From assembly GCF_004364935.1 (NCBI RefSeq), contig NZ_SOBT01000010.1:310001-374000 (forward strand): a stretch of 64,000 bases of DNA, in the 5' to 3' direction. Under the pieces are notes generated by a model. That model ran no database searches. It was not told the DNA's origin and saw only the letters and a program-made list of their open reading frames with translations. Positions 60,716-64,000 of this stretch are shown piece after piece. This DNA is from Panacagrimonas perspica (GTDB taxonomy: Bacteria > Pseudomonadota > Gammaproteobacteria > Nevskiales > Nevskiaceae). The position numbers and the translations under genes are program-made. Numbering within the stretch: the first letter of the stretch is position 1; each line of letters starts with the position of its first letter.

Positions 60716-60816
60716 GTTAATGCTGGCTCCCGAAGACGATGTGCAGGCGCGCCGGGCTGGCAGGGGTTGCGCGCAAGCGTTTATGGTGGCGCGGATTTTA
60801 CACGGCGCACAGTCCC

Positions 60817-61485
60817 TTGCTGAACCCCACGGCCACTCCCCGGCCCAATCCCTTCGCGCACGCCCAGTTCGTGATGTCCTGCGCCAGCCTCGACCAGTGT
60901 CCGACCGACGCCCTGTCGGAGCTGGCGTTCGCTGGCCGTTCCAATTCGGGCAAATCCAGCGCGCTCAACGCGATATGCAACCAGAAGGCCCTCGCCCGCG
61001 TCAGCAAGACGCCGGGACGGACGCAGCTGATCAACCTGTTCGAGCTGCCTGGCCAGGCCGGGCCGGCCGGCCGCATGGTCGATCTCCCCGGCTATGGCTA
61101 CGCGCAGGTCCCGGAGAAGATCCGGAAGGACTGGGCGCGCATGGTGGGTCGATTCGTCGAGCAGCGGCCCAATCTGCAGGGCATCGTCCTGATCATGGAT
61201 TGCCGTCACCCGCTGACCGATTTCGATCAGCAGATGCTCGCCTGGATCCAGCTCGGCGAGCGCCGCTGTCACGTGCTGCTGACCAAATCCGACAAGCTGG
61301 GCTTCGGGGCGGGCAAGACCGCCTTGCTGACGGTGCAAAAGAAGATCCGCGAGATGGGAATCGAGGTCCAGTCGCAGCTTTTCTCGTCTCACTCCGGCCA
61401 AGGCGTTGAAGAGGCCCGCGATGCGCTGGCAAGGCTCCTCGCACTGCCGGACCCCGCGGCGCCCCCGAGTCCGGCGGCCGGGTAA
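60817..61485 (+). CDS. engB: Ribosome biogenesis GTPase EngB (YihA)
   Basis: 222 residues as drawn. G1 AGRSNSGKSS near 38-47, G3 DLPGYGYAQ near 88, G4 TKSDKLGF near 154. It acts in 50S subunit assembly. The start is uncertain: TTG 60817 gives a good fit to the NPFAHAQFVMS opening; ATG 60739 is upstream and GTG 60871 shorter. Convergent with polA. Confidence 0.86.
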   Translation: MLNPTATPRPNPFAHAQFVMSCASLDQCPTDALSELAFAGRSNSGKSSALNAICNQKALARVSKTPGRTQLINLFELPGQAGPAGRMVDLPGYGYAQVPEKIRKDWARMVGRFVEQRPNLQGIVLIMDCRHPLTDFDQQMLAWIQLGERRCHVLLTKSDKLGFGAGKTALLTVQKKIREMGIEVQSQLFSSHSGQGVEEARDALARLLALPDPAAPPSPAAG

Positions 61486-61496
61486 TTTCGGCGCCA

Positions 61497-61538
61497 GAAA
61501 TAGAAAAGGCCCGGCGGATCGGGGAAATCCGTCGGGCC
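61497..61538 (-). terminator. Terminator of small RNA copy 1
   Basis: Stem GGCCCGACGGAT with ATCCGCCGGGCC, loop TTCCCCG, followed by TTTTCTATTT on the minus strand. Confidence 0.9.
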
Positions 61539-61612
61539 AGCTTGCTCCGGCTGGGGAAGCCGGACCCGCTCAGGGAGTAGAAGCGGGAAGTGAGGAAGGG
61601 AGGTCCGTCACT
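61498..61612 (-). ncRNA. C-rich small RNA, copy 1 (polA-engB locus)
   Basis: About 115 nt on the minus strand, bounded by a promoter near 61617-61646 and a terminator at 61508-61538. Predicted structure is an unpaired 5' part with CCTCCCTTCCTCAC, a hairpin CCCGC/GCGGG with loop containing ACTCCCT, a second hairpin TCCGGCT/AGCCGGA with loop TCCCC, then the terminator. The C-rich loops could pair with GGAGG ribosome sites. The locus and orientation match Spot 42 (E. coli) and ErsA (Pseudomonas); the C-rich loops and length recall sX13 of Xanthomonas as I remember it. No reading frame of note is contained. Confidence 0.8.
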
Positions 61613-61618
61613 CAAGGT

Positions 61619-61646
61619 TATAGACGGCGCCTTTTCCGGAAAGTTC
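61619..61646 (-). promoter_or_regulatory. Promoter of small RNA copy 1
   Basis: GAACTT, 16 bases, TCTATAAC. It can be read as a sigma-E/AlgU type (GAACTT-N16-TC) or as a sigma-70 -10 box TATAAC with a poor -35. The spacing is the same in all three copies. Confidence 0.6.
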
Positions 61647-61723
61647 GCGGCGATCTGAAAAAGTTTTCGGGAATTTTTCTCGCCGGCCCCTTTCGAAAAA
61701 ATAACCTCGGAATTTTGTCCCAC

Positions 61724-61763
61724 AAATAGAAAAGGCCCGGCGGATCGGGGAATCCGTCGGGCC
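61724..61763 (-). terminator. Terminator of small RNA copy 2
   Basis: Same stem as copy 1 with a one-base shorter loop, then TTTTCTATTT. Confidence 0.9.
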
Positions 61764-61838
61764 AGCGCTGCTCCGGCTGGGGAAGCCGGACCCGCTCAGG
61801 GAGTAGAAGCGGGGAGTGAGGAAGGGAGGTCCGTCACT
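61724..61838 (-). ncRNA. C-rich small RNA, copy 2
   Basis: Second tandem copy, about 226 bases from copy 1. The body differs by only a few bases from copy 1, and the two hairpins and C-rich loops are kept. Its own promoter and terminator are intact, so it looks like a separate transcription unit. Confidence 0.8.
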
Positions 61839-61844
61839 CGAAGG

Positions 61845-61872
61845 TATAGAGGGCGGTTACTTCGGAAAGTTC
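61845..61872 (-). promoter_or_regulatory. Promoter of small RNA copy 2
   Basis: GAACTT, 16 bases, TCTATACC; identical spacing to copy 1. Confidence 0.6.
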
Positions 61873-61950
61873 GCGGAAACGCGAAAAAACTTTCAGCGAT
61901 TTTTTTCGTTCGCCCATCGCGGAAGATGATTCCGGAATTTCGGGCGCCAA

Positions 61951-61991
61951 AAATAGAAAAGGCCCGACGGATCGGGGAAATCCGTCGGGCC
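61951..61991 (-). terminator. Terminator of small RNA copy 3
   Basis: Stem GGCCCGACGGAT and ATCCGTCGGGCC, fully paired, then TTTTCTATTT. Confidence 0.9.
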
Positions 61992-62066
61992 AGCTTGCTC
62001 CGGCCGGGGAAGCCGGACCCGCTCAGGGAGTAGAAGCGGGGAGTGAAGGAAGGGAGGTCCGTCACT
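61951..62066 (-). ncRNA. C-rich small RNA, copy 3
   Basis: Third copy, nearest to polA. One base is added in the 5' C-rich part, and hairpin 2 keeps pairing through a U-G pair where copies 1 and 2 have U-A, which argues for selection on structure. The transcription unit is complete. Confidence 0.8.
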
Positions 62067-62072
62067 CATGGA

Positions 62073-62100
62073 TATAGAGCGACGCGCGCCGGGAAAGTTT
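62073..62100 (-). promoter_or_regulatory. Promoter of small RNA copy 3
   Basis: AAACTT, 16 bases, TCTATATC; the -35 differs by one base from the other two. Confidence 0.55.
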
Positions 62101-62195
62101 CCAAAAATTTCCCCAAAGCACCGAATTCATTTTGATACGGCGCCAAGCCACTGAGTTGTGGGAATTTATTCCCGCAATTTTTTCTTCGATTGCCA

Positions 62196-62211
62196 CTCAT
62201 CACGTGATGAG
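62196..62211. promoter_or_regulatory. Perfect palindrome CTCATCACGTGATGAG
   Basis: A 16-bp perfect palindrome between the polA stop (62277) and small RNA copy 3. It is about 95 bases before the -35 of copy 3. Possible operator for a dimeric regulator of the array, or part of polA transcript processing. Confidence 0.4.
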
Positions 62212-62276
62212 CGCTGGCTCAGGTCTTCGGATAATCGATATTGCCGCTGAAATCGGCCTTTTCCAGCTTCGCGAGC

Positions 62277-64000
62277 TCAGCTGATCGCATGCCCGGTCGC
62301 GGTATGCGCTTCGTCCCAATTCGTTCCAATTCCGTAATCCGCGACCAGCGGCACCGACAACGTGTGGATGCTCACCATGCGACCTGCAATCTCCGAGGCC
62401 AGCGCCGCAATACGATCCGACGGACCTTCGAATACGAGTTCGTCGTGCACCTGCATGATCATGCGCACGTCGGGTGCATGGCCTTCGAGCCAGCGCTGCA
62501 CGTCGATCATCGCGAGCTTGATCAGATCGGCCGCGGTTCCCTGCAGTGGCGCGTTGATCGCGGTGCGCTCCGCGTACTGACGCATCGCCTGATTCTTGGA
62601 CTGGATGTTGGGCAGATAAAGGCGTCGGCCGAACAGTGTCTCGACATAGCCGCGCTCATGCGCCGCGTGACGCGTGCCATCCATGAAACGCTTCACGCCG
62701 GGATAACGCCCGAAGAACCGATCGATCGTGTCCTGCGCCTCGCCGCGTGCGATGCCGAGATTGCGCGCAAGACCGAACGCGGAAATGCCGTAGATCAATC
62801 CGAAGTTCACCGCCTTGGCCGCACGACGTTGCTCGCCAGTGACCTGATCGAGCGCAACGCCCCAGACTTCGGCTGCCGTCGCCTGGTGAATGTCGAGTCC
62901 GCTGCGAAACGCGGCGACGAGGCGCTCGTCCGCAGAAAAATGCGCCATCAATCGCAACTCGATCTGCGAGTAGTCGATGGACAGCAGGGACTGGCCGTCC
63001 TCCGGAATGAACGCCTGGCGGATGCGACGTCCCTCTGCCGTGCGTACCGGGATGTTCTGCAGATTCGGATCCTGCGACGACAGGCGGCCTGTCGCAGCGA
63101 CGGCCTGGTGATAACTGGTGTGGATGCGACGCGTCAGCGGATTCACCGCGTTGGGCAACTGCTCCGCGTACGTCGAACGCAGCTTCTGCATGCCGCGCCA
63201 GTCGAGGATCTTGCGCGGCAGCGGATGTTCTTCGGCCAGCACTTCGAGCACGTCCTCGGCCGTGGACGGATCGCCCTTCGGCGTCTTGCTGACCACGCGC
63301 AGGCCGAGCCGCGTGAACAGGATCTCCTGCAACTGCTTGGGCGATCCGAGATTGAACTCTCCGCCGGCGACTTCGAAAGCCTCCGCACGGATCTGATCCA
63401 TGCGCGCCGCCAGTTCGACGCTGATGCGGTTGAGCAGCGGCACATCTACACGCACGCCCGTCTGCTCCATGCGCGCCAGCACCGGCACCAGCGGCATCTC
63501 GATGGTTTCGAACACGCGCTGCAACTCGGGGATCTCGACCAGCCGCGGATGCAGCGCGCGATGCAGACGCAACGTGATGTCGGCGTCTTCGGCGGAGTAG
63601 TCCGCGGCCTTGTCGAGCGCCACCTGGTTGAAGGTGATCTGGTTCTTGCCCTTGCCGGCGACGTCCTCGAACTTGATCGTCTTGTGACCGAGATATTTCT
63701 CGGACAGCGTGTCCATGTCGTGGCGATTGCCGGCTGCATCGAGCACGTAGCTCTCGAGCATCGTGTCGTAGGCCACACCGCGCACGACGATGCCGTGGCG
63801 CGCGAGCACATTGAGGTCGTACTTGATGTGCTGGCCGACTTTCGGCTTCGCGTCGTCTTCGAGCACGGCTTTCAGGCGCGCGCGCACGACCTCGAGCGAA
63901 AGCTGTTCCGGCGCACCCAGATAATTGTGCGCAACCGGCACGTACCATCCCTTGCCTTCTTCGATCGCGAACGCGAATCCGACGAGCCCCGCCTGATTCG
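62277..64000 (-). CDS. polA: DNA polymerase I, partial (N-terminus beyond the window)
   Basis: The frame stays open to base 64000, so the 5' exonuclease part is missing from view; about 574 C-terminal residues are seen. The 3'-5' exonuclease motifs KYDLNVLARHG and YSAEDADITLRLH (metal Asp) are intact, suggesting active proofreading. Polymerase motifs A (LLSIDYSQIELR), B (RRAAKAVNFGLIYGIS) and C (MIMQVHDELVFE) are intact. Convergent with engB across the small-RNA array. Confidence 0.96.
   Translation of the reverse strand, partial: NQAGLVGFAFAIEEGKGWYVPVAHNYLGAPEQLSLEVVRARLKAVLEDDAKPKVGQHIKYDLNVLARHGIVVRGVAYDTMLESYVLDAAGNRHDMDTLSEKYLGHKTIKFEDVAGKGKNQITFNQVALDKAADYSAEDADITLRLHRALHPRLVEIPELQRVFETIEMPLVPVLARMEQTGVRVDVPLLNRISVELAARMDQIRAEAFEVAGGEFNLGSPKQLQEILFTRLGLRVVSKTPKGDPSTAEDVLEVLAEEHPLPRKILDWRGMQKLRSTYAEQLPNAVNPLTRRIHTSYHQAVAATGRLSSQDPNLQNIPVRTAEGRRIRQAFIPEDGQSLLSIDYSQIELRLMAHFSADERLVAAFRSGLDIHQATAAEVWGVALDQVTGEQRRAAKAVNFGLIYGISAFGLARNLGIARGEAQDTIDRFFGRYPGVKRFMDGTRHAAHERGYVETLFGRRLYLPNIQSKNQAMRQYAERTAINAPLQGTAADLIKLAMIDVQRWLEGHAPDVRMIMQVHDELVFEGPSDRIAALASEIAGRMVSIHTLSVPLVADYGIGTNWDEAHTATGHAIS

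Follow-up and report, generated by a model that had tools for sequence, protein, structure and literature searches.

The window, the whole 64,000 nt stretch of Panacagrimonas perspica DNA that was analysed, carries three near-identical units in the gap between polA and engB. They probably arose by the recent tandem amplification of an anti-hemB/sX13-type small RNA that acts in trans; this RNA would function in envelope stress by blocking GGGAG-type ribosome-binding sites. The structure of the units, their locus, their conservation and their recent triplication come directly from computation.

The units lie directly downstream of polA and on the same (minus) strand. They are direct repeats of about 113 nt with spacings of 226 and 227 nt and pairwise identities of 91–94%. 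Predicted +1 sites are found near 61612, 61838 and 62066, so that the span of 61498–62066 given in the initial annotation fits the transcribed part well. The genes and units are arranged as follows.

60739 to 61485, plus strand: engB/ysxC (yihA), TIGR03598 with 218 bits, convergent with the array; its actual start may be further inside
61501 to 61625, minus strand: sRNA unit 1 (engB-proximal), predicted transcript from about 61612 down to about 61500
61727 to 61851, minus strand: sRNA unit 2 (middle), predicted transcript from about 61838 down to about 61726
61954 to 62079, minus strand: sRNA unit 3 (polA-proximal), predicted transcript from about 62066 down to about 61953
62277 to 63998, minus strand: 3' part of polA, NF004397 and TIGR00593 above their cut-offs, extending beyond the window

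Each unit consists of four stem-loops, the last of which is a G+C-rich hairpin followed by UUUUCUAUUU.

61589 to 61613 (unit 1), 61815 to 61839 (unit 2) and 62042 to 62067 (unit 3), minus strand: stem-loop 1 (SL1), loop CUCCCU
61565 to 61587 (unit 1), 61791 to 61813 (unit 2) and 62018 to 62040 (unit 3), minus strand: stem-loop 2 (SL2), loop ACUCCCUG, the most conserved loop
61546 to 61564 (unit 1), 61772 to 61790 (unit 2) and 61999 to 62017 (unit 3), minus strand: stem-loop 3 (SL3), loop CCCC
61504 to 61538 (unit 1), 61730 to 61763 (unit 2) and 61957 to 61991 (unit 3), minus strand: terminator stem-loop, CCCC within the loop

The folding energies of units 1, 2 and 3 are -51.9, -54.2 and -59.4 kcal/mol, with z-scores of -5.3, -5.1 and -6.7, and for each unit none of 200 dinucleotide shuffles folds as low. 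The loops of SL1–SL3 are identical in all three copies, variation being confined to the stems and spacers: compared with units 1 and 2, unit 3 has a U-G instead of a U-A pair closing SL3 and an extra U in SL1. The terminator stem is perfect in unit 3 and contains an A-C mismatch in units 1 and 2, and the terminator loop of unit 2 is one U shorter. In a simple terminator scan the polA-proximal unit was the only copy listed, probably because of this mismatch in the other two, and the three terminator sites counted in the region are not above the number in shuffled sequences (mean 1.9, s.d. 1.7). The repeats, the folding z-scores and the hairpin with its U-rich tail in all three copies nevertheless bear out what had been described initially, namely three near-identical tandem units, each with its own terminator; their placement on the polA strand between polA and engB was verified by NCBIfam matches of both flanks. 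A further terminator-like hairpin, read on the plus strand, is present at 62153–62180 between polA and the array.

A covariance model, R1, was built from 29 units (the three of the window and 26 from relatives), all belonging to the window's family. In this alignment 94.3% of the cells are paired, compared with 84.1% in shuffles and 29–53% in slid versions, against which the structure is favoured as it was derived from the same alignment. Two-sided changes occur in 20 of the 34 pairs. The covariation score is 0.396, compared with 0.193 for shuffles and at most 0.100 for slid versions, and none of 500 shuffles equals the alignment in pairing or covariation score. The number of further pair types is not above that of the shuffles, 92 of 500 reaching the observed value. 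The CUCCC of the SL1 and SL2 loops is invariant in all 29 units; stems that covary around fixed loops are what one would see if function resides in the loops. The structure of the units is under selection. R1 gives the window units 1, 2 and 3 scores of 121.4, 117.4 and 120.0 bits, which serve to fix borders only as these units helped to build the model.

The initial annotation had suggested a covariance search against Rfam, which turned out positive for one family and negative for two others. With RF02837 (anti-hemB; gathering score 49.5 bits) unit 3 scores 53.2, unit 2 49.7 and unit 1 48.1 bits, so that two of the three units pass and unit 1 falls short by 1.4 bits. With RF02232 (sX13) the window units reach 23.5 and 21.1 bits, below the gathering score of 50 bits, with no row for the middle unit, and the Spot 42 model has no match at E <= 1 in 61480–62280. 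Judged by these sequence scores, the window units belong to anti-hemB and are more remotely related to sX13. The named sX13 genes of Lysobacter gilvus (31.0 bits) and Pseudoxanthomonas wuyuanensis (29.4 bits) are matched by R1, once per genome; both genes immediately follow polA on its strand, and no engB was found within 1.5 kb of them. Anti-hemB and sX13 are thus joined by one model and one locus. Two weak R1 matches (L320 and L324) also read like sX13. Upstream of the two named genes a CGAACCA-N15-GTCATA motif looks σE-like by eye. The sX13 RNAs of Pseudoxanthomonas and Lysobacter have an extra 5' stem, GCGACAGA/TCTGTCGC versus GCGTCAGA/TCTGACGC, a two-sided change seen by eye, which begins before the Rfam match (L263:1501-1640, minus strand; L264:1480-1612, plus strand); going by these sequences, the Rfam family may not cover the full length of sX13.

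At E <= 0.001, RF02837 has a match in 73 of 80 relatives, above its cut-off in 14 of the 80. Weak single matches prove little, since three of 14 control genomes are also matched at this level, all under the cut-off. R1 at E <= 1e-4 has matches in 113 of the 369 genomes searched in the class, in 89 of 272 genera. Of 80 named engB loci, 33 contain 35 R1 matches with E below 1e-5, including loci of Azoarcus, Thauera, Aromatoleum, Denitromonas, Nitrosomonas and Thioalkalivibrio; two further matches (L045 and L041) have E above 0.1, and loci titled Neisseria or Snodgrassella within this set have none. Anti-hemB exceeds the Rfam cut-off in four of 14 loci scanned: Azoarcus, Thauera, N. europaea and N. 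halophila. At least one unit is present in 72 of 77 polA-downstream regions (76 relatives plus the window, each region about 2.5 kb where the contig allows), from which the 26 relatives' units in R1 were taken. The five unit-free regions belong to G022, where the contig ends, to G011 and to three genomes of other orders. In G011 (L220 and L221) no RNA is found by polA, and there are two copies at engB and a further one about 77 kb away; dispersed copies therefore arise. An extra RF02837 match away from polA is seen, for example, in G001 (contig C4), G009 (C5) and G020 (C116).

In the wider set (n = 37, betaproteobacteria and other orders) the CUCCC of SL2 is invariant save for one base in one sequence, and SL1 is often without a C-rich loop. 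RNAalifold on the very divergent set A3 recovers only SL2 and the terminator (12 pairs, seven with two-sided changes). This set comprises 22 of 27 loci outside the window's order and 14 of the 35 matches from named engB loci; L291 was omitted as near-identical to L289, and the other omissions followed no set rule.

A promoter-like box precedes each unit, as had been proposed. The box is of the σE type, with the deviations from the family consensus listed below, and a σ70 promoter scan of the array region found none.

61619 to 61647, minus strand: σE-like promoter of unit 1, CGAACTTT (61647-61640), 15 nt, TCTATA (61624-61619); deviates at -10
61845 to 61873, minus strand: σE-like promoter of unit 2, CGAACTTT (61873-61866), 15 nt, TCTATA (61850-61845); deviates at -10
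62073 to 62101, minus strand: σE-like promoter of unit 3, GAAACTTT (62101-62094), 15 nt, TCTATA (62078-62073); deviates at -35 and -10

Before the units of the window's order the motif has a -35 element GGAACTT and a -10 element that is mostly GTCTGA or GTCTAA (in short form GGAACTT-N15/16-GTCTRA), with a best-fit spacer of 15–16 in 123 of 127 upstream stretches. By its sequence this family motif resembles the σE (RpoE) consensus promoter, given as GGAACTTTT / GTCAAA (PMC1804206). The loose pattern GAAC-N16/19-TCNNA is found in 108 of the 127 stretches, a count that included the 14.2-bit match L149:107-172, compared with 0.7% of shuffles and 30 of 5270 random windows. It also precedes 26 of 35 R1 matches in named engB loci, mostly from betaproteobacteria (35 of 37 matches were counted, L045 and L041 being omitted for E > 0.1; L092 is cut by a contig end), and is present in 20 of 29 class-level loci and in 10 of 20 weak-match loci. 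When the motif was applied as a weight matrix to 18 rpoE loci (L250, cut by a contig end, was left out), the rpoE upstream region topped all sampled control windows in nine of ten genomes outside the window's family, L236 being weak. Within the window's family the motif is found before rpoE in none of eight cases, the window's own rpoE (L224) included, so that no autoregulation motif stands before this gene. The literature covered, mostly open-access, contains no report of a σE promoter for anti-hemB or sX13.

None of the three window units fits the loose pattern, because their -10 element reads TCTATA and not TCTRA. The pattern GAACTTN{15,18}TCTRA is not enriched in the window's genome (one match versus two in the reversed control), and the strict σE pattern in four relatives gives three matches versus one in the control. 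We consider it unlikely, although deserving attention, that the units belong to the same sRNA family with a promoter that has drifted in the window's genus to a housekeeping or another ECF σ factor, making the RNA constitutive or responsive to another signal, with a metabolic role like that of NmsR in Neisseria. The TCTATA element recurs in all three copies and in the same-genus locus L144, the organism's own rpoE is without the motif, and besides an RpoE above its family cut-off (294 bits) the genome has eight other places that match the RpoE profile at E <= 0.001. The NmsR siblings, which carry anti-Shine–Dalgarno motifs, act on the TCA cycle (PMC5362039), a precedent for such a role. Drift away from RpoE is nevertheless opposed by the GAAC core at -35 and the 15 nt spacing, which units 1 and 2 retain, by GGAACTT and TCTAAC in another genome of the genus (G002, L145), and by the empty σ70 scan.

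The genomic neighbourhood was examined starting from the RNA. The 29 top-scoring loci beyond the window, 27 of which are outside its order, include 26 with engB and/or polA within 1.5 kb, in standard orientation at 25 loci and inverted at one (L284). Among 20 weak R1 matches picked by hand from the lower part of the match list, 19 have engB, polA or hemB within about 2.5 kb, so that weak R1 matches are mostly real. Altogether, 45 of 49 neighbour-checked matches are beside engB and/or polA, or hemB. In a tblastn search of the named engB loci, hemB turned up at 26 of the 33 RNA-bearing loci and at none of the 47 others, and polA at two of the 33 and none of the 47.

These arrangements bear on the proposal of a cis role for the units where polA and engB converge, as antisense RNAs or terminators that stop read-through. 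Their position between convergent genes and their strong hairpin ends would suit such elements. In relatives, however, the RNA remains by polA when engB is about 2 kb (G035), 43 kb (G006) or 246 kb (G013) away. Betaproteobacteria carry it adjoining hemB instead (Pfam ALAD in five of five tested), and in one Propionivibrio it is by hemB at about 3.7 kb from engB. Termination, moreover, needs neither a promoter for each unit nor invariant loops, and we regard a cis role as very unlikely.

In Pseudogulbenkiania and Crenobacter (L101:5713-5822 and L103:5757-5876) the RNA is on the engB strand in an inverted locus, beyond which is a gene for a lytic transglycolase–SPOR protein. For the named engB loci of Marinobacter and Halomonas, tblastn found no polA in the sequence retrieved. 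In Marinobacter lipolyticus (L038) GAACTTTT-GTCTTA is located about 190 nt 3' of engB on the minus strand, with no polA found near, and is followed by about 115 nt and a terminator-like hairpin. Going by sequence features, this element is possibly an unrelated σE-type sRNA.

The initial annotation had also compared the array with Spot 42 of Escherichia coli, and the shared locus is confirmed: the E. coli order is polA-spf-yihA, with the RNA in the same gap and on the same strand. In the 5 kb stretch that was searched spf is also the best match of R1. The score of 8.1 bits (E 0.056) is not significant, however, and with no match of the Spot 42 model in the array the homology that had been inferred is not supported. 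There is accordingly little room for the units being a Spot 42 orthologue with a role in carbon catabolite control.

Arrays are common beside polA. The survey of copy number that had been suggested finds up to six units in a polA-downstream region, with two or more (2–6) in 24 of the 77; genus g17 has 3–6 units in 13 of 13 genomes. Old, diverged arrays, in which every copy is closer to a counterpart in another genome than to any of its array neighbours, are found in genus g5 (two of two) and in six of the 13 genomes of g17, the remaining g17 arrays being mixed or with recent copies. This comparison took 126 of the 127 units, the 14.2-bit L149:107-172 being left out. The window copies match each other best (0.91–0.94, compared with 0.88–0.91 for the same-genus G001) and form one clade within the genus with support of 98/89 in a tree of 47 of the 126 units. 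The window array is thus a recent triplication, or a product of gene conversion. The divergence under selection that had been considered does not apply to it, its copies being recent with identical SL1–SL3 loops; the diverged arrays are those of relatives. As N. halophila also has three copies, amplification has probably occurred more than once. Triplication by itself is ordinary gene dosage. Tandem arrays at polA–engB are not reported in the literature covered, mostly open-access.

A DNA search of the 5.4 Mb genome with one unit (E <= 0.001) gave no place other than the three units, and neither RF02837 nor R1 (E <= 1e-4) matches anywhere else. The copies are therefore not a repeat found mainly away from polA, the finding that the initial annotation had named as speaking against it, and a mobile repeat is rejected for this genome. 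The idea that the units are mobile or simple repeats of DNA with no role as RNA can practically be dismissed: they are tandem and near-identical and some relatives have a further copy away from polA, but the two-sided pair changes are far above controls and one locus is kept across a class.

For the trans-acting sRNA favoured here, we infer expression, RpoE control, pairing and targets as follows. Envelope stress would release RpoE, which would transcribe each copy separately. The CUCCC loops would then pair with GGGAG-type ribosome-binding sites, so that translation falls, and three copies would provide a higher dose and a faster response. The mode of action would resemble that of ErsA and sX13 in Gram-negative bacteria and that of LhrC, which Listeria has in five copies. 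The genome also encodes Hfq. Messages for outer-membrane proteins are the leading guess for targets. Upstream of a start codon, a sequence exactly complementary to the SL2 loop, CAGGGAGT-N2/9-ATG, occurs at 16 places in the window's genome versus two in the control, an excess that could be explained by ordinary ribosome-binding sites. Nine products of the 16 places, picked as credible reading frames, were scanned with no significance test, and two are outer-membrane proteins (one TonB-receptor plug and one porin O/P domain). This search is a weak, exploratory lead and not evidence.

As a kind, the RNA is already known as Rfam anti-hemB (RF02837, 'Burkholderia RNA 7'; ncS04 in B. cenocepacia). 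The apparently new element is the link of two separately filed RNA families with a σE-type promoter. The name anti-hemB comes from the position beside hemB on the opposite strand, a naming feature that is outside the Rfam model. The window units match it in sequence and structure by the covariance model, and the same promoter type precedes the RNA in most R1-matched named engB loci. They differ in having polA and engB rather than hemB as neighbours, in SL1, which is located 5' of the stretch that the 81-position Rfam model covers and presents a C-rich loop of its own, and in being three tandem copies. A 105 nt anti-hemB transcript is expressed in B. cenocepacia biofilms (PMC5688073). The literature covered, mostly open-access, reports no function for it that we found.

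The sX13 RNA (RF02232, Xanthomonadaceae) has been linked mainly to virulence, in a single genus. It resembles the window units in its R1 matches of 29–31 bits and its upstream CGAACCA-N15-GTCATA, and differs in the Rfam cut-off that the window units do not reach, in its single match per genome and in the distance to engB. It is likewise a polA-adjacent gene with C-rich hairpin loops, which repress G-rich mRNAs (PMC3771888). The present results bear on whether the polA loci of other bacteria encode sRNAs, a question raised in that paper. The common locus, architecture and promoter type of anti-hemB and sX13 give a testable envelope-stress role to a family that occurs in roughly one in three of the genera sampled from the class.

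ErsA of Pseudomonas aeruginosa, compared by locus and promoter description, occupies the polA–engB intergenic region (PMC8575079), as the initial annotation had stated. It is described as strictly dependent on the RpoE homologue σ22 and responsive to envelope stress (PMC7565897), and it represses a porin mRNA (PMC8395346). The comparison holds for the locus and, in the family, for the promoter type, which is clear there and deviates at -10 in the window copies. ErsA differs in being 132 nt long and described as a single gene. We tentatively suggest, without leaning strongly either way, that anti-hemB, sX13 and the polA-locus RNAs form one family that predates the beta/gamma split, with an ancestral RpoE-type promoter and anti-Shine–Dalgarno loops, ErsA and possibly Spot 42 being derived members or replacements at that locus. 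If so, the name 'anti-hemB' would be misleading for an RNA that regulates the envelope-stress response in trans, and its dose would have been tuned repeatedly by tandem amplification, to up to six copies.

The array finds an analogy, and an analogy only, in LhrC1-5 of Listeria monocytogenes, a distant host in which five near-identical copies with three redundant CU-rich motifs are induced by envelope stress and probably act additively on a surface-protein mRNA (PMC4132741). The Listeria RNAs differ in being driven by LisRK. Arrays of one to six copies, recent or old and diverged, provide a natural series in which additive sRNA copies can be set against a division of work.
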